Shown here piece by piece: positions 19,366-37,668 of a DNA stretch of 53,559 nucleotides. Every line of letters starts with the position of its first letter. The stretch's first letter is position 1. Origin of the DNA: Candidatus Falkowiibacteriota bacterium (lineage in GTDB: Bacteria > Patescibacteriota > Patescibacteriia > Patescibacteriales > UBA12465); assembly GCA_026396875.1 (NCBI GenBank), contig JAPLVY010000010.1:1-53559 (forward strand), given 5' to 3'. The notes below the pieces were generated by a model. The model saw nothing but the letters and a program-made list of their open reading frames with translations, was not told where the DNA came from and made no database searches. Both the position numbers and the translations under genes were made by a program.

Positions 19366-22300
19366 CTAGGGATTAATTAAAGCATTCACAACTTTTCTGG
19401 TAATCGGACCAAAGTATCCAGAGGCTGGATTAATTTTTTTAGCTTTCTGAAATTTAACTAAAGCAGAATTGGTAGCGCGCCCGAATGAATTACTTTCTTT
19501 TCCCTTGGAGCCAGCGCCGGATTTAGCAACTGGATAACCATGGAGATTTAAAAACTCCTGAAGTCTTTTTACTTCTTTATCCACCGATCCTAACCCAAGA
19601 TTTTTAACAAAGAACGAAAGAGTTGAAGCAAGAGAAGTGGACGAAGAACTAACAGTTAAAGATTTCTCTTTTTTATCAGGCAATACAATCTTTATTGCCT
19701 GGATACGTCCTTGGAAGGGGATGTAACTTCCCCGCTGACCAACAAAAAAAGCATTACTTCTGGTCGGGAAGCCAAACATGTTGCCAGAAACGGCAACGGG
19801 AGTAACTTCGAAATAAATATTATGCCCCCAGTCCTCTGGTTTAGTGATGTAGGTCGACTGCGTTTCTCCGTCTATTAACAATTGATCTCTGAACCAGTGA
19901 AAACGAGAATTCCTTTCAGGGCCATTTTCATTATCAATATAAACATAGGTTCCGGCTAGCTGCTGCCCCACTTGGAAATTTCCGGAAATGCTTACTGAAG
20001 AAGCTGCCGGAACGTGATTAGGAGCAAATAGCCCCTGGTTAATAAAGATCTCTGCTGGCAAGTGATACGGACCGCTGTCGATTGGCACTAATAAACCGTT
20101 AGCCGAGTCACCATTCCCCAGAGAAACAGTTGCTAACCCGTGCAAGGCATTCTGCAAAGTGATAATAATTGTATTGTCTGAGCCTCGAGCCACAGAAGAT
20201 ATATTAGCCAATGATCCATCGTCCCTCACCTCAAACCCCTGAATGCCGGTAACTGGCAGGATTGGTAAAATACTAGCTGACATCGTGAGGATGAGTACTG
20301 TTCTAGACGAATCCTCTTCTAACCCAACCAATCTTGGTCCGCGACCATTAATTCCACCATAAAAATCCTGCTCTAACGCTGCCCACCAACGATTAGCGGC
20401 AGTCCTGACTTCGGAATCAGAATAAACATGCACTCCATCCCAAGATAAATTAATATCATAAAGTGATGGTCCGGCTAAAATATTCTGATTCTCATCCCAA
20501 GCTTCTTCTTGTGCTAATCGAATATTGTTTAAATTTGAACCCAGCTGACCATAATATTCACCTATTTGGGCCACAACCGTTTTGGCGTCAAAATCATTAT
20601 TGATATCGTTAGCGAAAGTATTCAATAAATTTTTATAAGTATTCTTATCTGATCCATTACGTGCATCATATTCTCCTTGCCAAAAAAGTACCGCTTTAAC
20701 TTTACCAACAGCATTGATTCTTCTATACATTGAACCGTAAAGAGTGCTGGTGTCGCCCGGATTATTATTATTCCTTTGCCAATCTATTATAGATGTCCCG
20801 CCCATTGAGCATGGCACGAAAGCGACTGGAATATTAGTATTATCCAATATCTTCGTGGCCAAAAGCGGCCAAATTGAACCAAGCATTCCTCGATCTACCG
20901 CGCTAACATTGTCCACCTGGTTAACCGCGCTATCTACGGGATCAATTAGATTCTTCCACTTATCATCATTGCCAAACTCTCCCGCTCTCAAAATAGGATG
21001 AGAGTAGCTCTGGATGTTCTGCCCTAGACCGTCAGCATTACTTTGACCAGCGATAACATAAATATCACCGATTCCGACATAGGGACTAGCCGCATTAATT
21101 AAATGATTATCAGAGAAACGAACAATCAAGCTGCCCTGCCCGATTACCTGGTCAGTTAATACGCCACCAAAAGTATGGTGAGAAACATTGTGGCTAATCA
21201 CAATATAGGGGCCACCATTCCAAGACGCCTCGATAGCGGTTGGGCTTCCTGTATAAGTACCGGATATCAAAATATCCGCCTTATTATTAGCTCTTCTTTG
21301 AAAAATCTGGTAAGGCGCCGGGCCATCCAAATAAATTCCGCAACTGCCAGTCGTAAAAGTTTTATCTGGTCCATAACCGGTACCATAGCCATTAGTGGCG
21401 TAGCTTCGGTAATGATAAGTGGTTTCACAATCCAACGAAGATAGGGCATTGGTGTACGTACTAGTTCCGAAATTACCATGTTCAACTACACTATTACCAT
21501 AGCTATTAGTTGGACCGTATTCAAACCCTCTAACCTGATCGTTCCCTGCTCCAGTGGACGTAATGCTGCCTTTCACCATAGCAGAATTAGAATAAATTTC
21601 TGTACTAGATTCGGTACTTAATATTGGCACCACCGAATAGGTGTAGACATAACCATTCAATACGCCAGCTGCGAATTTATTGCCATCAGCTGAAGATGAA
21701 ACTGAATACCAGTCACGTGATCCGGCGCCAGAATGGACGAGCCAATTTTCTCCTCCGTCACGAGAAGAATAGATATAATCAGAATTATTTGCGGCCGCAA
21801 CTAAATTATTGCCATCAGCTGAAGAAGCAACCGAAACCCAATAGTGCGCACCTAAATCGGTTCTTATTGTCCAGTGCAGGCCGCCGTCGGTCGAGGTATA
21901 AATACACCCCTGGTCATAATTAGCGGTGATTAATTTATTGCCATCAGCCGAAGAAGCAATGCTCCACCACTTATACTGACCGATGCTAGATCTCTCGACC
22001 CAACTGACTCCGCCATCGATTGAAGTATAGACCGAGCCTCGATAAACAACAGCGGCCAATTTAGAACCATCAGCGGAGGAAGTAATAGAAACCCAATTGA
22101 GCGAACCTGATTCGGTTTGTTCGGTCCAATGAACTCCGCCATCGATTGAAGTATAAATATAACCCTGGCTAACTACAGCTGCCAATTTAGAACCATCCGC
22201 GGAGGAGGTAATGGAGTACCAATTAAGCGAACCCGATTCAGTTTGCTCGGTCCAAGAATCGCCACCATCAATTGAAGTATAAATATAACCACCATACACA

Positions 22301-23817
22301 ACAGCAGCTAACTTCTTGCCATCAGCTGAGGAAGAAATATTGCGCCAATGGCGTAATCCCGCGCTAACCCTTGTTGTCCAATTTAGTCCTCCGTCATTAG
22401 AAGTATAAATATAACCGTCATTGGCTGGCCCACCGGTAATAACTGCTAATTTGGAACCATCGGCCGAAGAAGTGATAGAATACCAGTCGTGAACACCGGA
22501 ATTAGTTTGAGTGATCCATTCCCCATAAATCAATGAACAAGACCCAGTGGTAAATGTTCGGTCTTCGCCGTAGCCAGTACCCGAACTATTAGCTGCATAA
22601 GCCCGATAATGATAAGTTGTTTCGCAGGCCAAGGAAAATGCTTTGATGGTATAAGAACCAATACTAAAAGAGCCGCTATTTTCCACTTGGTCACCATATT
22701 CGGTTGTCAGTCCATAGTCAAATCCTTGAGTGGTTTCATGCTCTCCTCCGCTAGCGGCAATATCGCCATTTAGAATCACCGAATCAACTGATAACAATGT
22801 CGCCACTCCCGTAGTCACTGTTGGTGGAATTGGCGGGGAATAAGTAAAAACGGAGAGATACCCCACTGAGATAACACCAGCAATTTTGGCACCATCAGCC
22901 GAAGAAGTAACCGACAACCAAGAACCAAATCCCGACTCTGTTTGTTCCGACCAGGTAATACCACCATCATTAGAAGTAAAAACATAATTACTGTCGGACA
23001 CGATCACTAACTTATCTCCATTAGCCGAAGAGGCAACGCTTTTCCAAATGTTATAACCTTCATTCTGTCTAACCCAACTGTAACCACTGTCAGCGGAGGT
23101 GTAAATATAATTACTAACTGCAGTAATTTTTGTACCGTCAGCCGAAGATGCAATCGAAACCCAATGGTTCCAGCCAGAATCGGTCTGCTCCGTCCAAGTC
23201 GCACCTCCATTAACAGACGTATAAACAAATCCCAAAGAAAGTACTGCCGCCAACTTCATTCCATCTGCCGACGAAGTTATTGAGACCCAATTATCTGAGA
23301 CGGAATCAAGCTGTTCGGTCCAGATTGTACCACTATCAATTGAGGTATAAATATGACCGCCATAAGTCGTTGCTGCCAACTTGACACCATTAGCAGAAGA
23401 AGTGATTGCGGTCCAAGACTGATTCCCAGGAGCAGCATGTTCCACCCACGTATCACCATCATCTTCGGAAGTATAGATGTAGCCGCCAGAAACTACCGCC
23501 ACCAAATTACTACCATCAGCTGAATACGTGATTGCCGACCAATCGCGCAGGCCAGAATTTGGACGTTCTACCCAAGTATTACCACCGTCAACCGAAGTAT
23601 AAACATGGCCGCCAGAAACACTAGCCGCCATCTTCATACCATCAGCCGAAGAAGTGATTGAGCTCCAATTTTGAGCGCCAAGTTCAGTGTGAGAAGTCCA
23701 GCCAGCTAAGGCTGGACGGGGCAATAAAAACAAAATTAGAGCCAAGAAAAAATAAAGCCCAAAATTTCTGAAAAATTTTCCGCCCCTATTAAAAAATGAG
23801 AAAAGATTAACGGTCAT
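19366..23817 (-). CDS. giant exported protein: two Asp-box propellers, Fn3-like, SGNH esterase, peptidoglycan-binding domain
   Basis: 1483 residues. A signal peptide ends at ALA-38. Seven blades of about 42 residues (39-335) each carry 'SSADG' and an Asp-box S/T-x-D-x-G-x-x-W as in sialidases. An Fn3-like domain follows (about 335-430, 'TYHYRAYAANSSGTGYG'), then seven more blades (430-735) and a second Fn3-like domain (735-835). An SGNH/sialate O-acetylesterase-type domain (about 880-1150) has 'AGQSNADG' near 924, 'FWQGEYDA' near 1044 and 'DGVHVYS' near 1125. An Ig-like region (1160-1380) and a PG_binding_1 domain (1410-1483) finish the protein. It is probably a wall-bound surface protein that removes acetyl groups from glycans, with propellers for binding. 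It has its own promoter. Confidence 0.88.
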   Translation of the reverse strand: MTVNLFSFFNRGGKFFRNFGLYFFLALILFLLPRPALAGWTSHTELGAQNWSSITSSADGMKMAASVSGGHVYTSVDGGNTWVERPNSGLRDWSAITYSADGSNLVAVVSGGYIYTSEDDGDTWVEHAAPGNQSWTAITSSANGVKLAATTYGGHIYTSIDSGTIWTEQLDSVSDNWVSITSSADGMKLAAVLSLGFVYTSVNGGATWTEQTDSGWNHWVSIASSADGTKITAVSNYIYTSADSGYSWVRQNEGYNIWKSVASSANGDKLVIVSDSNYVFTSNDGGITWSEQTESGFGSWLSVTSSADGAKIAGVISVGYLSVFTYSPPIPPTVTTGVATLLSVDSVILNGDIAASGGEHETTQGFDYGLTTEYGDQVENSGSFSIGSYTIKAFSLACETTYHYRAYAANSSGTGYGEDRTFTTGSCSLIYGEWITQTNSGVHDWYSITSSADGSKLAVITGGPANDGYIYTSNDGGLNWTTRVSAGLRHWRNISSSADGKKLAAVVYGGYIYTSIDGGDSWTEQTESGSLNWYSITSSADGSKLAAVVSQGYIYTSIDGGVHWTEQTESGSLNWVSITSSADGSKLAAVVYRGSVYTSIDGGVSWVERSSIGQYKWWSIASSADGNKLITANYDQGCIYTSTDGGLHWTIRTDLGAHYWVSVASSADGNNLVAAANNSDYIYSSRDGGENWLVHSGAGSRDWYSVSSSADGNKFAAGVLNGYVYTYSVVPILSTESSTEIYSNSAMVKGSITSTGAGNDQVRGFEYGPTNSYGNSVVEHGNFGTSTYTNALSSLDCETTYHYRSYATNGYGTGYGPDKTFTTGSCGIYLDGPAPYQIFQRRANNKADILISGTYTGSPTAIEASWNGGPYIVISHNVSHHTFGGVLTDQVIGQGSLIVRFSDNHLINAASPYVGIGDIYVIAGQSNADGLGQNIQSYSHPILRAGEFGNDDKWKNLIDPVDSAVNQVDNVSAVDRGMLGSIWPLLATKILDNTNIPVAFVPCSMGGTSIIDWQRNNNNPGDTSTLYGSMYRRINAVGKVKAVLFWQGEYDARNGSDKNTYKNLLNTFANDINNDFDAKTVVAQIGEYYGQLGSNLNNIRLAQEEAWDENQNILAGPSLYDINLSWDGVHVYSDSEVRTAANRWWAALEQDFYGGINGRGPRLVGLEEDSSRTVLILTMSASILPILPVTGIQGFEVRDDGSLANISSVARGSDNTIIITLQNALHGLATVSLGNGDSANGLLVPIDSGPYHLPAEIFINQGLFAPNHVPAASSVSISGNFQVGQQLAGTYVYIDNENGPERNSRFHWFRDQLLIDGETQSTYITKPEDWGHNIYFEVTPVAVSGNMFGFPTRSNAFFVGQRGSYIPFQGRIQAIKIVLPDKKEKSLTVSSSSTSLASTLSFFVKNLGLGSVDKEVKRLQEFLNLHGYPVAKSGAGSKGKESNSFGRATNSALVKFQKAKKINPASGYFGPITRKVVNALINP

Positions 23818-26174: not shown

Positions 26175-26234
26175 ATAAAAAAACAACCAGTATTAAAGGT
26201 TGTTTTAATCTGCGAGTAGATGCTCTTGGAACGA
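26175..26234 (-). repeat. tRNA-associated element E1 (subtype B) with minus-strand terminator
   Basis: The hairpin AACAACC/GGTTGTT (26181-26205) has T7 on the minus strand. It is followed at 26211 by TGCGAG and, at 26226-26234, TTGGAACGA, the end motif of elements at 26914 and 36577. No gene upstream on the minus strand explains a terminator here, so it looks like a displaced remnant. Confidence 0.5.
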
Positions 26235-26244
26235 CAATTCAATT

Positions 26245-26273
26245 TTGCGCTATCGTTGAAATACTATTACAAT
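26245..26273 (+). promoter_or_regulatory. predicted promoter of the 26305 gene
   Basis: TTGCGC (26245-26250), 17 bp, TACAAT (26268-26273). Confidence 0.5.
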
Positions 26274-26304
26274 ATAGCTATCTATATTAATCTTTAATTT
26301 TTTT

Positions 26305-26718
26305 ATGAAAATTACTATTGGCGGTAGTATGACTTTCGCCAAAGAGCAGGTGGAAATCAAACGGCAACTTGAACAAAGGGGACATGAAGTTTTAGTAACT
26401 GATGATATTGAAGATTATATTAATAATTCAGCAATTAAAAACAGTTTCGAAGAAGAACTAGAATTGTCTTTAAAATATGACGTAATGCGTACTTTTTTTA
26501 AAAAAATTGATTCGAGTGATGCTTTTTTAGTCTGCAATTATTCTAAAAATGGGGTTAGCGGACGTCTGGGCATTTCCGCTTTAATGGAGCTTGGCCTGGC
26601 ATATCATCTCGGTAAAAAAACATACTTACTTTTTGAGACTGACAAAGTTCAAGATTACGCTTTAGAAGTAGCCATTATTAACCCAATAATCCTTAATGGT
26701 GATATTTCTATAATATAA
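26305..26718 (+). CDS. nucleoside 2-deoxyribosyltransferase-like protein
   Basis: 137 residues with a Rossmann-like fold: 'MKITIGGSMTFAKEQ' strand-loop-helix at the start, 'SSDAFLVCNYSKNGVSGRLGISALMELGLAYHLGKKTYLLFE' in the middle. The 'G-x-S-x-x-x-E-L-G-x-A' pattern is where nucleoside deoxyribosyltransferases carry the catalytic Glu. Its reaction may be base exchange or hydrolysis of nucleoside-type substrates in the cytoplasm; the exact substrate is unknown. It stands alone between two tRNA-derived elements (E1 and E2), opposite in strand to them. Confidence 0.65.
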   Translation: MKITIGGSMTFAKEQVEIKRQLEQRGHEVLVTDDIEDYINNSAIKNSFEEELELSLKYDVMRTFFKKIDSSDAFLVCNYSKNGVSGRLGISALMELGLAYHLGKKTYLLFETDKVQDYALEVAIINPIILNGDISII

Positions 26719-26751
26719 ATATTACCCAAATAACGAAATTCATATTTAAAA

Positions 26752-26855
26752 AAATGGCTCTAATTTTAGAGTCATTTCTAATCTGCAAAGAGGCAGGGAT
26801 TTACCCCCTCCGGGGCACCCGCACTCGGAGGGGGTAAATTTCGAATCTCCCGAGC
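26752..26855 (-). repeat. tRNA-Ser 3'-end element E2 (subtype A) with palindromic insert
   Basis: A minus-strand terminator hairpin (around 26755-26778) is followed by TGCAAAGAGGCAGGGATT (26784-26801), which matches the tRNA-Ser(TGA) 3' end at 27861-27878 except for two bases. Where the tRNA continues TCGAA, there is a near-perfect 16-bp hairpin: 26796-26811 against 26827-26842, GC-rich with two G-T pairs. TTCGAATCTCCC follows at 26840-26851. The element reads as a tRNA 3' end with a palindrome inserted in its T loop. Confidence 0.75.
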
Positions 26856-26878
26856 TTCTTTTCAAGAAGCTAAATTAA

Positions 26879-26943
26879 AAGACCAGCTAACGCTGGCTTT
26901 TTAATTTATCTCCTGCGGAGAGGGCGGAACGTAGTTGGAATGG
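26879..26943 (-). repeat. tRNA-associated element E2b (subtype B) with minus-strand terminator
   Basis: GACCAGC/GCTGG(C) hairpin at 26881-26897, T4 on the minus strand, then TGCGGAG at 26914 through GTAGTTGGAATGG at 26943. It matches 36577-36606 at 25 of 30 positions. It lies just past the stop of the minus-strand gene at 26970. Confidence 0.7.
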
Positions 26944-26969
26944 TAGTATCAAGAAACGGAAAGACTAAC

Positions 26970-27572
26970 TTAGTTTAAATTTGGCAACCAGTTAATGTCG
27001 TCCCTAATTTTTTTTAACTCATTTTCTTCTTCTAATTTGCGGTTATAACTATCCTCTTTTCTCTGGTATTCTTTTCCGGTCAAAGAATAGGCGCCAAATT
27101 CTTCGTCCATTTCTTTGACTCTTCTTTCTCTAAAAGATTTTATAGATTCTACGTCTTTCTTCAATAAAAATTTTTTTAACTCTTCCGAATATCGCAGCTT
27201 TAAGCTTAGATCGTCAACTAGTTTATCTAGCTGTTCTTGGCCACCAAATGAATCTCTCATATGCGCCGGCATTCGATCTGATTTATATAAATCTTTGATC
27301 TCGTCGCTTGCTTTATCGATTAGACGAAAAGAGCTTATTTTAGATTTTAGTCGGGGGATTTCTGCTCCATTCAAAATCATAAACTCTTCGGAAACAAGCT
27401 TTGCGTCCTCCTCGCTGAGTTCTCGTAAAGTATTATTTAAAACTACATTTTCATTTTCTTCTCTTTTGACCGCGCCTGCTTCTCCACTAATATTTTCGCA
27501 TTTCTCTTGAATTTGTTCTTCATTTTTTTCAACTTCATTTTTCCCTAGTCGTGGGGATTCTTCAATGCTCAT
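26970..27572 (-). CDS. charged helical protein, function unknown (between tRNA-derived elements)
   Basis: 200 residues, very rich in Glu and Lys, predicted helical and partly coiled coil, without signal or membrane segment. The start is a disordered-looking 'SIEESPRLGKNEVEKNEEQ' region. It is the only gene between elements E2b and E3, on the same strand as the nearby tRNA-Ser(TGA), and so looks like a single-gene insert. No family is recognised. Confidence 0.6.
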   Translation of the reverse strand: MSIEESPRLGKNEVEKNEEQIQEKCENISGEAGAVKREENENVVLNNTLRELSEEDAKLVSEEFMILNGAEIPRLKSKISSFRLIDKASDEIKDLYKSDRMPAHMRDSFGGQEQLDKLVDDLSLKLRYSEELKKFLLKKDVESIKSFRERRVKEMDEEFGAYSLTGKEYQRKEDSYNRKLEEENELKKIRDDINWLPNLN

Positions 27573-27637
27573 AAAATTATTATTTATCGTTATATTTAGA
27601 TTATATCATACCGCTCCAAAGTCATGAACTCCCCATC

Positions 27638-27808
27638 AAAAAATAGCCCATTTTTAGGGCTATTTACAAACTGCGGAGAGGCAGGGATTCGGTCACGGTC
27701 GCTAAACCTCACTTGTTCGCTAAAATAGCGAACTGCGTTCGCTAAGCGCCTCGACCCGGCCTCGGCGGTGCACTGGTGCACATCGCCTCCGGCTTTCGAA
27801 TCCCTCCG
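27638..27808 (-). repeat. tRNA-Ser 3'-end element E3 (subtype A) with inverted end copy
   Basis: A terminator hairpin AAATAGCCC/GGGCTATTT (27644-27668, minus strand) is followed by TGCGGAGAGGCAGGGATTCG (27672-27691), identical over 20 nt to the 3' end of tRNA-Ser(TGA) at 27861-27880. The far end, CGAATCCCTCCG (27797-27808), is an inverted copy. The 105-bp interior is GC-rich with nested palindromes, for example GGCGGTGCAC/GTGCACATCGCC near 27764-27787. Read on the minus strand it would fold into one long hairpin ending like a tRNA. Confidence 0.8.
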
Positions 27809-27822
27809 TTTTCATCTCAAAG

Positions 27823-27860
27823 CAAAAAGAAAACCTGACGCAGGTCAGGTTTTCTTTTTG
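27823..27860 (-). terminator. terminator of tRNA-Ser(TGA)
   Basis: AAAACCTGAC/GTCAGGTTTT hairpin (27831-27852) with T-run on the minus strand, directly after the tRNA 3' end. Confidence 0.85.
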
Positions 27861-27862
27861 TG

Positions 27863-27949
27863 CGGAGAGGCAGGGATTCGAACCCTGGGCCGGCTTGCAC
27901 CAGCGACAGTTTTCAAGACTGTTCCATTAGACCACTCTGGCACCTCTCC
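27863..27949 (-). tRNA. tRNA-Ser(TGA)
   Basis: 87 nt. Acceptor GGAGAGG pairs with CCTCTCC; the anticodon loop is CTTGAAA with anticodon TGA (reads UCA/UCN). A long type II variable arm and T arm CAGGG-TTCGAAT-CCCTG follow. The discriminator is G and CCA is not encoded (GCA follows). A minus-strand promoter (TTGAAG, 16 bp, TAGAAT at 27990-27963) sits just upstream. Its 3' end recurs in elements E2 and E3. Confidence 0.97.
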
Positions 27950-36534: not shown

Positions 36535-36606
36535 CAAAAAACCATGATTAATCATGGTTTTTTATTGCGATTTTTGTGCGGAGAGGGGGGGGCGTAGTTG
36601 GAACGA
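36535..36606 (-). repeat. tRNA-associated element E5 (subtype B) with terminator
   Basis: AAAACCATGATT/AATCATGGTTTT hairpin (36538-36561) with T-runs on both strands, then TGCGGAGAGGG at 36577 through GTAGTTGGAACGA at 36606. It matches element E2b at 25 of 30 positions and lies 10 nt past the stop of the minus-strand peptidase gene, just as E2b does with its gene. Confidence 0.7.
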
Positions 36607-36615
36607 TTATGTCTT

Positions 36616-37272
36616 CTATAATTTTAAACAATTCCCTTCACTAATAACCGTAACTGCACCATCAACGACTTTAAGAGCTGACTCGTCGTCCAGGCCATAT
36701 ACATTTTTTTTTGTTTCATTAGCAGTCTTTCTTAGGTTTTCCTCATTGGAATCTAAGTGTTTCGGAGAATTAAAATGAGGATAAACATAAAAATCTACCA
36801 AATTTAAGGCTTCTTCACTTTTATATCCAAATTGATCCTCATAATATTTCATTTTACCATTACTAGTGTAGGCTATGCTCGGGTTTGTGGCTATGCTCCC
36901 AGCGCTAATTCCGGCATAAACCCTAGTTTTTAATAACTCAGGTAAAACTTCAGATAAACCAGATTTTTTTAACCAATACATTAGATGGTAAGTATTTCCT
37001 CCTGAGAAAAATAAAACATCTCCATCTTCTATTTTCGGCAACCAAATTTTTTTCGGAAGCGCTGAGACATCTACAATATCAATAAATTTGAATCCTTGTT
37101 TTTTTATATTATTAAGGTCATTTATAAAACAGTCTTTGCTTCCCCTGGCAGCATTCATTGCCGTCGGTATAAAGACAACCACCGTCTCTGACGCAGGCTT
37201 TCCCGTTAGTTCAAATAAAGCATTGGAGATTGATTGGTTAGAGAGACCATTGGACGTTAATAGCAATTTCAT
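36616..37272 (-). CDS. peptidase S51 (dipeptidase E/cyanophycinase-like) family protein
   Basis: 218 residues. 'DVLFFSGGNTYHLMYWLKKSGL' and the nucleophile-elbow 'YAGISAGSIATNPSI' (Ser near 122-124) are S51 signatures; 'FYVYPHFNSP' supplies the His and a downstream Glu/Asp is present. PepE-type enzymes cleave Asp-X dipeptides in the cytoplasm; cyanophycinases release dipeptides from cyanophycin. It is the only gene between elements E5 and E6, on the strand of the nearby tRNA-Ser(GCT). Confidence 0.88.
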   Translation of the reverse strand: MKLLLTSNGLSNQSISNALFELTGKPASETVVVFIPTAMNAARGSKDCFINDLNNIKKQGFKFIDIVDVSALPKKIWLPKIEDGDVLFFSGGNTYHLMYWLKKSGLSEVLPELLKTRVYAGISAGSIATNPSIAYTSNGKMKYYEDQFGYKSEEALNLVDFYVYPHFNSPKHLDSNEENLRKTANETKKNVYGLDDESALKVVDGAVTVISEGNCLKL

Positions 37273-37339
37273 AAAATTATATAATTATAATATTTAATTT
37301 AATATTAGCACCGACCATTCCAAAGTTCAATCCTTCCTA

Positions 37340-37524
37340 TCAAAAATAGCCCCTATTTAAGGACTATTTTAATCTGCGGAGAGAGGGATTACGAACCCGT
37401 CGCTTCGCTCCCCCAGGGGGCTTCCGCCCCCTTAGGCGCTCCTCACTTCGCTCGTCGCTGATACCCCCTCAAAAACGGTGGGAAACTGCCGTTTCCCAAA
37501 CCCTTCCCAGGGTTCGAATCTCTT
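37340..37524 (-). repeat. tRNA-Ser 3'-end element E6 (subtype A) with inverted end copy
   Basis: A terminator-like hairpin (AAAATAG.../...CTATTTT, 37343-37370) is followed by TGCGGAGAGAGGGATTACGAACCC at 37375-37398. That is the 3' end of tRNA-Ser(GCT) (37581 onward) with two bases missing and one added. GGGTTCGAATCTCTT (37510-37524) is its inverted copy. The 110-bp interior is GC-rich, with palindromes such as GGGGGCTTCCGCCCCC near 37417-37432 and a CCTCACTT motif also found in E3. Confidence 0.8.
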
Positions 37525-37544
37525 CTTTAACTACTTCTCACATA

Positions 37545-37578
37545 ATAAAAACACCCCAAAAGGGTGTTTTTATTATGT
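37545..37578 (-). terminator. terminator of tRNA-Ser(GCT)
   Basis: ATAATAAAAACACCC/GGGTGTTTTTATTAT, a long stem with a 4-nt loop, directly beyond the tRNA 3' end. Confidence 0.85.
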
Positions 37579-37581
37579 GAG

Positions 37582-37668
37582 CGGAGAGAGAGGGATTCGA
37601 ACCCTCGATCCTCGTAAAAGGATAACACCTTAGCAGGGTGCCCCGTTCAACCACTCCGGCACCTCTCC
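37582..37668 (-). tRNA. tRNA-Ser(GCT)
   Basis: 87 nt. Acceptor GGAGAGG/TCTCTCC, anticodon loop CTGCTAA with anticodon GCT (reads AGC/AGU), long type II variable arm, T arm GAGGG-TTCGAAT-CCCTC, discriminator G, no encoded CCA. A TATAAT abuts the 5' end, too close for a normal promoter, so transcription may come from further upstream. Its 3' end recurs in element E6. Confidence 0.97.

Follow-up and report, generated by a model that had tools for sequence, protein, structure and literature searches.

The T-loop and 3′ end of tRNA genes are frequent targets of tyrosine recombinases, which leave the tRNA restored, as in tRNA-integrated islands, satellites and tycheposons, in which the 3′ part of the tRNA is targeted and a direct repeat of its 3′ end results. 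Casposons also insert at tRNA 3′ ends, duplicating the target end. Integron cassettes are mostly single genes stacked at one anchor, with shared end modules, imperfect palindromes whose outer strands are complementary, and the newest unit apparently beside the anchor; MITE/REP/PATE-type hairpins are short, non-coding, folded and present in many copies without an enzyme of their own. The stretch of DNA analyzed here (the window) is the 53,559-nt contig C7 of a Candidatus Falkowiibacteriota genome of 767 kb, ten contigs and 44 tRNA matches. It carries two arrays, each behind a tRNA-Ser gene, that resemble integron arrays in their form and tRNA-integrated elements in their target, yet lack defining features of both.

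The integron-like aspect is the array of interchangeable single-gene cassettes with common ends, and a previous sequence-only reading of this DNA, which had described a cassette-like array, was right in this respect. Unlike in integrons, the anchor is a tRNA T-arm, the cassettes carry their own promoter and terminator, gene-less units dominate, and a conserved three-way-junction core stands where integrons have GTTRRRY/RYYYAAC attC core sites. The same reading had also likened the palindromes to attC sites; this was not supported, as no IntI with its added domain exceeded the cut-off in the window's genome, and no RYYYAAC/GTTRRRY core site was seen in the alignments, which read GGRNTCG/CGANYCC in the base stem and GTGAC at the core end. 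As in tRNA islands and tycheposons, the tRNA is restored and its 3′ end directly repeated; unlike those, the units here span 0.1–1.5 kb without an integrase (the window arrays hold no tyrosine recombinase gene, as the earlier reading had noted), and one core, with matched copies, is found at at least 28 isoacceptors and tmRNA. Casposons share the tRNA 3′-end target and the duplicated target end, whereas here Cas1 is absent from 19 of 20 carrier genomes, there is no PolB-type cargo, and the duplication is longer and bounded by the tRNA. From MITE/REP/PATE-type hairpins, which they match in size, folding, copy number and lack of a gene for their own enzyme, the units differ in their strict T-loop target and copied tRNA 3′ end, and the Y1 HUH transposase that marks IS200/IS605 or REP/RAYT elements is present in only 7 of 20 carriers. 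The elements are not members of the integron or casposon families.

The first array lies behind an intact minus-strand tRNA-Ser(TGA) (27862–27949; ARAGORN, Rfam tRNA), in which the insertion point falls in the T-loop, between GGGTT and CGAATCCC. All its parts lie on the minus strand except one gene. Immediately 3′ of the restored tRNA stands a terminator hairpin with 17-bp perfect arms (27823–27860), itself part of the element; equivalent hairpins follow other filled tRNAs. Next come E3, a class I structured element of 124 nt (27684–27807) composed of a closing stem, GGATTCG/CGAATCC, and a three-way-junction core, GAAAGCCGGAG...GAGGCCGGGTCG...CGTGAC, and a displaced copy of the tRNA 3′ end, identical at 20 of 20 positions (27672–27691). 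A terminator, AAATAGCCC...GGGCTATTT (27638–27665), opens the left end of cassette 1, which continues with a left inverted repeat and a probable promoter, GGGGAGTTCATGACTTTGGAGCGG-TATGATATAAT (27598–27637), a stretch common to cassettes with other genes. The cassette gene (26970–27572) encodes an orphan protein of 200 aa with no Pfam match and no relative among 60 related genomes, and the cassette ends in ATTCCAACTACG followed by a decayed tRNA-Ser 3′-end copy, TTCCGCCCTCTCCGCA (E2b, 26914–26930; right end and copy together 26914–26943). Beyond it lies an E2-type unit (26784–26913), built as AGGAGAT-terminator-AGCTTCTTGAAAAGAAGCT-GGGAGATTCGAA-hairpin-AATCCCTGCCTCTTTGCA with the tRNA 3′-end copy AAATCCCTGCCTCTTTGCA at 26784–26803. 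The terminator behind this copy (26749–26777) forms the left end of unit 2, whose gene (26305–26718, plus strand) is inverted relative to the array and encodes a nucleoside 2-deoxyribosyltransferase-like protein of 137 aa, with a Pfam match below the cut-off and a family of relatives. The outermost part, E1 (about 26175–26240), is a remnant with CGTTCCAAGAGCATCTACTCGCAG and a terminator. E3 and E2 folded much better than shuffled sequences, with z-scores of −5.0 and −4.4, respectively. The sequence-only reading had described the intact tRNA, E3 and E2 with their 3′-end copies, E2b and E1 as related remnants, the terminators and the two single genes; all of these are present, E2b and E1 as weaker relatives, and both genes are real ORFs. 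Its proposal that older 3′ ends are pushed outward agrees with a perfect copy nearest the tRNA and decayed copies farther out.

A second array, which that reading missed, occupies 36577–37668 behind tRNA-Ser(GCT) (37581–37668; ARAGORN) and is arranged like the first, with all parts on the minus strand. A terminator hairpin immediately 3′ of the tRNA (37537–37580) is followed by a structured unit, AGATTCGAACCC...GTTCGTAATCCC (37373–37530), by a tRNA-Ser 3′-end copy, AATCCCTCTCTCCGCA, with the terminator of the cassette left end (37342–37395), by a gene for a 218-aa peptidase S51 (Pfam PF03575; 36616–37272), and by a right end comprising GTTCCAACTACG and a decayed tRNA-Ser 3′-end copy (36577–36604).

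At the tRNA-Ser genes of this family, many copies adjoin genes through the same end modules (terminator, promoter, inverted repeat, CGTTCCAACTACG), which are conserved while the genes between them are interchangeable. The left end runs copy-CAGATTGTAAATAGCCC..terminator..GATAGGGAGTTTATCGCTTTGGAACGG..TATAAT, the right end CCGTTCCAACTACG-TCCC-acceptor end, and the short inverted repeats are GGGA..TTGGAACGG and CCGTTCCAACTACGTCCC. With at most one mismatch, GTTCCAACTACG occurs 17 times in 364 kb, 13 of them directly before a Ser 3′ end by script and two more by eye. The enclosed genes encode a HAD hydrolase, an ADP-ribosyltransferase-like protein, a PEP-utilising mobile domain, NYN, HD, laccase-like, EutH, GNAT, DUF6122 and peptidase S51 proteins. 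Across the 60 relatives searched, the piece made of a Ser copy plus terminator is often repeated at a spacing of 0.6–2.5 kb, and at one locus (L061) seven copies follow a single tRNA-Ser(CGA). A genome of the same genus (G002) has the orthologous tRNA-Ser(TGA) locus, flanked 5′ by Fur (76%) and AhpC (90%); there the E2-type unit stands directly behind the tRNA and is followed by GNAT, GNAT and DUF6122 cassettes, whereas in the window the tRNA is separated from the E2-type unit by E3 and the orphan cassette. The gene content behind a shared unit has thus been swapped between relatives, a comparison the earlier reading had proposed and one that speaks for its idea of repeated insertion. One of the two GNAT cassettes (73% identical protein) is also present in another genus, where a class I core precedes it and no adjoining tRNA was found.

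A search of the whole genome for further units, also advised earlier, recovered relatives of E3 (class I) behind tRNA-Ala(TGC) and tRNA-Lys(TTT), each ending in the 3′ end of its own tRNA (matching at 20 of the last 22 bases and at all from C56 onward), and a differently folded class II unit behind tRNA-Glu(TTC) with a 17/22 copy. Matches to E3 were present in 30 of the 60 related genomes; at the relatives' loci, class I units follow Pro, Leu, Gln, Cys, Ala and Ser tRNAs, and class II units (aligned from eight sequences) follow Ser and Gly tRNAs. The earlier link to tRNA-Ser in particular is unsupported, because the hairpin units target almost any tRNA. The covariance scan of CPR genomes that had also been suggested was made with a model (R1) built from class I units and found them in 45 of 380 Patescibacteria genomes, with up to six per genome. 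A wider pattern scan of one genome per species returned at least 117 stretches, nearly all from Patescibacteria, with about six from Elusimicrobia among the matches listed.

The matches listed, together with the earlier loci, provided 124 readable class I units for target statistics. Of these, 102 follow a same-strand tRNA on its 3′ side at a distance of 9–118 nt; 67 of the 102 carry at least 15 of 17 bases of that tRNA's 3′ end, 54 of them perfectly; the mismatched-tRNA control reached this level in 12 of about 2,789 pairings (about 0.4%). GTGAC directly precedes the copy in 66 of the 67. Of the remaining units, several stand behind tmRNA and one behind a tRNA with an apparent intron. The targets among the matches listed comprise at least 28 isoacceptors for at least 16 amino acids, plus tmRNA, and the target is therefore the T-arm, which is common to all these RNAs. 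The copy is decayed in about one-third of the tRNA-linked elements, which counts against the reading we favor below. Tandem identical units occur and fit either a site-specific insertion system or unequal recombination.

Several individual loci extend this picture. Class I units stand directly behind tmRNA (ssrA), with the tmRNA 3′ end copied, at L093, L136, L145, L202 and L212, in tandem at the last. The class I core also follows tRNA genes in Elusimicrobia (L137, L142, L143, L148, L155 and L194), pointing to transfer between phyla, and truncated tandem units are seen at L142 and L143. At L201, a class I unit follows an apparent tRNA that has intron-like sequence just upstream of its 3′ half and received no ARAGORN call. 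Two database labels look like binning or labelling errors: L183 (G008) is labelled Planctomycetota Prado159 yet is placed in the Patescibacteria family of the window genome, and L165, which has a class I unit, is labelled Nanoarchaeia. The exact class I pattern, a weak search, had no match in IMG/VR viral contigs; the E3 region belongs to no Rfam family, only tRNA and tmRNA scoring above the gathering threshold. The literature searched, which was covered in part, held no description of such elements, and the family is widespread and apparently undescribed.

The class I fold covaries very strongly. In the consensus from 15 units, double changes occur at 13 of 29 pairs; in an alignment of 117 matches, 93.5% of cells are paired against 74.4% after shuffling, and 590 double changes compare with 185, a value that none of 500 shuffles reached. 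This alignment was fitted to the covariance model, which favors pairing, yet the margin is large, and sliding the register lowers pairing to about 30–44%. The base stem consists of the tRNA T-arm strand and a unit strand that varies with the tRNA: one column pair (8–268) reads UA in 38, AU in 31 and CG in 28 cases, and the T-arm-complementary strand is perfect over 9 nt to its own tRNA in 23 of 67 units, against 1.8% for other tRNAs. G-U and A-C cells, counted to tell RNA from DNA folding, are equally common in the base stem (31 each), and the class I fold includes one nearly invariant G-U pair. At a tRNA-Gln of G349 (L096, 1420–1640), the 5′ strand of the unit reproduces the whole tRNA 3′ end in reverse over about 19 nt and so forms a giant hairpin together with that 3′ end and the terminator. 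Mimicry of a tRNA by the entire unit, with the acceptor strand also reverse-copied, was dropped as a general rule, since this was found in about 4 of 67 units against a background of 2.5%.

Comparison of close relatives revealed units present in one genome and absent from another. Two genomes, G003 and G024, are 96–97% identical around tRNA-Leu(TAA) and tRNA-Gly(GCC). G003 has a class I unit at the former and a class II unit at the latter; both are missing from G024 with exact joints, the direct repeats measuring 23 and 17 nt, respectively. The terminator carried at the G003 tRNA-Gly differs from the native one. The Leu unit is likewise lacking in G013, G018, G021 and G022; G026 and G028 have it. 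These clean joints lend weight to the earlier proposal of repeated insertion at tRNA 3′ ends, for which the direction of change is not polarised: presence and absence fit gain or loss, and G024 could have lost its units by recombination between the direct repeats, so that mobility is inferred from the patchiness. With the base stem excluded, cores at different tRNAs of one genome are more similar (0.469) than cores between genomes (0.400; none of 2000 permutations), and the isoacceptor effect is small (0.442 for the same isoacceptor in different genomes, against 0.414). Within a lineage, units thus appear to pass from one tRNA to a different one and to finish with the 3′ end of the new tRNA on each side. 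No other observation is as hard to reconcile with a simple integrase model as this spread with matching copies. G003 also has two Pro tRNAs with different 3′ ends and near-identical inserts that begin right after the tRNA; beyond its tRNA-Pro(TGG) unit lies a GC-rich palindrome, CCCCGTATAGC... (L068, 3593–3700), absent from G024 and possibly representing another unit class.

None of three enzymes checked as the possible mover is common to the carriers, which also counts against the reading favored below. Cas1 (PF01867) was found in 1 of 20 carrier genomes and Y1 transposase (PF01797) in 7, neither of them in the window's own genome, and reverse transcriptase in only 10; all three were rejected as the moving enzyme. 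A reverse-transcriptase gene (437-aa frame) does lie near tRNA-Gln(TTG) of the window's genome (G000:C6:7926-8555). The search for a recombinase across the whole genome, proposed in the sequence-only reading, yielded one tyrosine recombinase, the only PF00589 protein, which is Xer-like and encoded on another contig than the window. It scores 109.6 bits against TIGR02249 (cut-off 265) and 198 bits against the XerD model, below its cut-off, and its nearest solved structures are XerD. The only recombinase shared by nearly all family genomes tested (14 of 15) is a Xer-like protein. Two genomes, G009 (L080) and G030 (L081), have a second tyrosine recombinase of 269 aa, absent from the window's genome, which is a candidate for the moving enzyme; the G009 protein scores 208.7 bits, below the integron-integrase cut-off, and the L080 recombinase lies at the NCBIfam cut-off for XerA_Arch/integron integrase, with 219.5 of 220 bits.

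Given the position of the units, their 3′-end copies, covariation, patchy presence with clean joints and swapped gene content, these are probably site-specific elements and gene cassettes that are non-autonomous, use the tRNA T-arm as target, rebuild the tRNA and are moved by an enzyme acting in trans. Units would insert site-specifically at the T-arm in genes for tRNA and tmRNA, with a T-loop break that follows TT or TTC. Each insertion would leave a complete tRNA with the unit's terminator directly behind it and, at the far end of the unit, a duplicate of the tRNA 3′ end that starts at C56 and reaches about the mature end. In hairpin-only units (class I, class II and the E2 type), a structured core has a base stem pairing with the T-arm strand; the cassettes, seen at tRNA-Ser in this family, hold a terminator, a promoter and one gene between short inverted repeats. 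A recombinase supplied in trans may use the T-arm and the folded base stem as attachment sites; successive insertions would push older units outward, where their copies decay, so that the tRNA-proximal unit would be the newest. A more specific form of this reading, plausible but short of an even chance, is that an undiscovered recombinase recognises the shared T-arm and inserts folded single-stranded or RNA-derived units that copy the target's 3′ end, shuttling single-gene expression cassettes at tRNA-Ser; because the target's own 3′ end would be copied, any tRNA gene could be entered without damage.

Whether the tRNA 3′ end arrives with the element or is copied from the target separates the main competing accounts. 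Classical tRNA-integrated islands would bring it as part of attP, and later deletion of integrase and cargo would leave attL/attR and a terminator. Tyrosine-recombinase use of the tRNA T-loop and 3′ end, the 3′-end direct repeats at both ends and the non-native terminator at the G003 tRNA-Gly agree with such remnants, which we nevertheless consider unlikely. The units are uniformly 74–228 nt with a conserved folded core, unlike random deletion scars, and their cores cluster by genome rather than by tRNA, which indicates movement between different tRNAs with the copies still matching; the usual integrase carries the tRNA 3′ end with the element and fits this poorly. Copying from the target would occur if staggered cuts about 20 nt apart were followed by gap filling, the 3′ end being a long target-site duplication made by a Cas1/casposase-like enzyme or by target-primed retro-insertion. 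This would account for tRNA-specific copies whose left joint (GTGAC) is sharp, for the spread across tRNAs within genomes and for the G003 Pro tRNAs, and we regard it as possible if rather doubtful: Cas1 is nearly absent and reverse transcriptase not universal among carriers, and target copying alone leaves unexplained why the unit's 5′ end pairs with the T-arm and why a terminator is carried.

The strong RNA-like covariation and the nearly invariant G-U pair could instead indicate a functional RNA maintained by vertical inheritance, namely a structured trailer 3′ of the tRNA with a role in its regulation or processing. This is very improbable, since a terminator often separates tRNA and element, presence is patchy among close relatives, the tRNAs carrying an element differ between genera, and G-U and A-C cells are balanced in the base stem. 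A mutational origin, in which snap-back replication at the T-arm and terminator palindromes produces direct-inverse-direct duplications, would explain the order at L096 (tRNA 3′ end, terminator, full inverse copy, core, direct copy); local duplication, however, cannot yield a conserved core of 65–115 nt shared across phyla, and full inverse acceptor copies are as rare as noted above. Such an origin, which we would give hardly any weight overall, is disfavored for class I by the conserved core and is possible for E2-type units.

Patescibacteria have tiny genomes and few recognised gene-exchange systems. With T-arm units in about one-eighth of those sampled, together with cassette swapping at tRNA-Ser, site-specific insertion by a trans-acting enzyme would amount to an integron-like route of gene gain; should the undiscovered-recombinase form be true, it would be integron-like gene capture with a tRNA in place of attI, in both Patescibacteria and Elusimicrobia. 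The findings raise the question of how an element moves between different tRNAs and each time leaves the right 3′ end on both sides, and the class I covariance model and the cassette ends provide markers for finding the enzyme. Elsewhere in the window, positions 19366–23817 encode a 1483-aa, probably secreted protein with sialic-acid-esterase-like (SASA), BNR/YCF48-like and peptidoglycan-binding domains.
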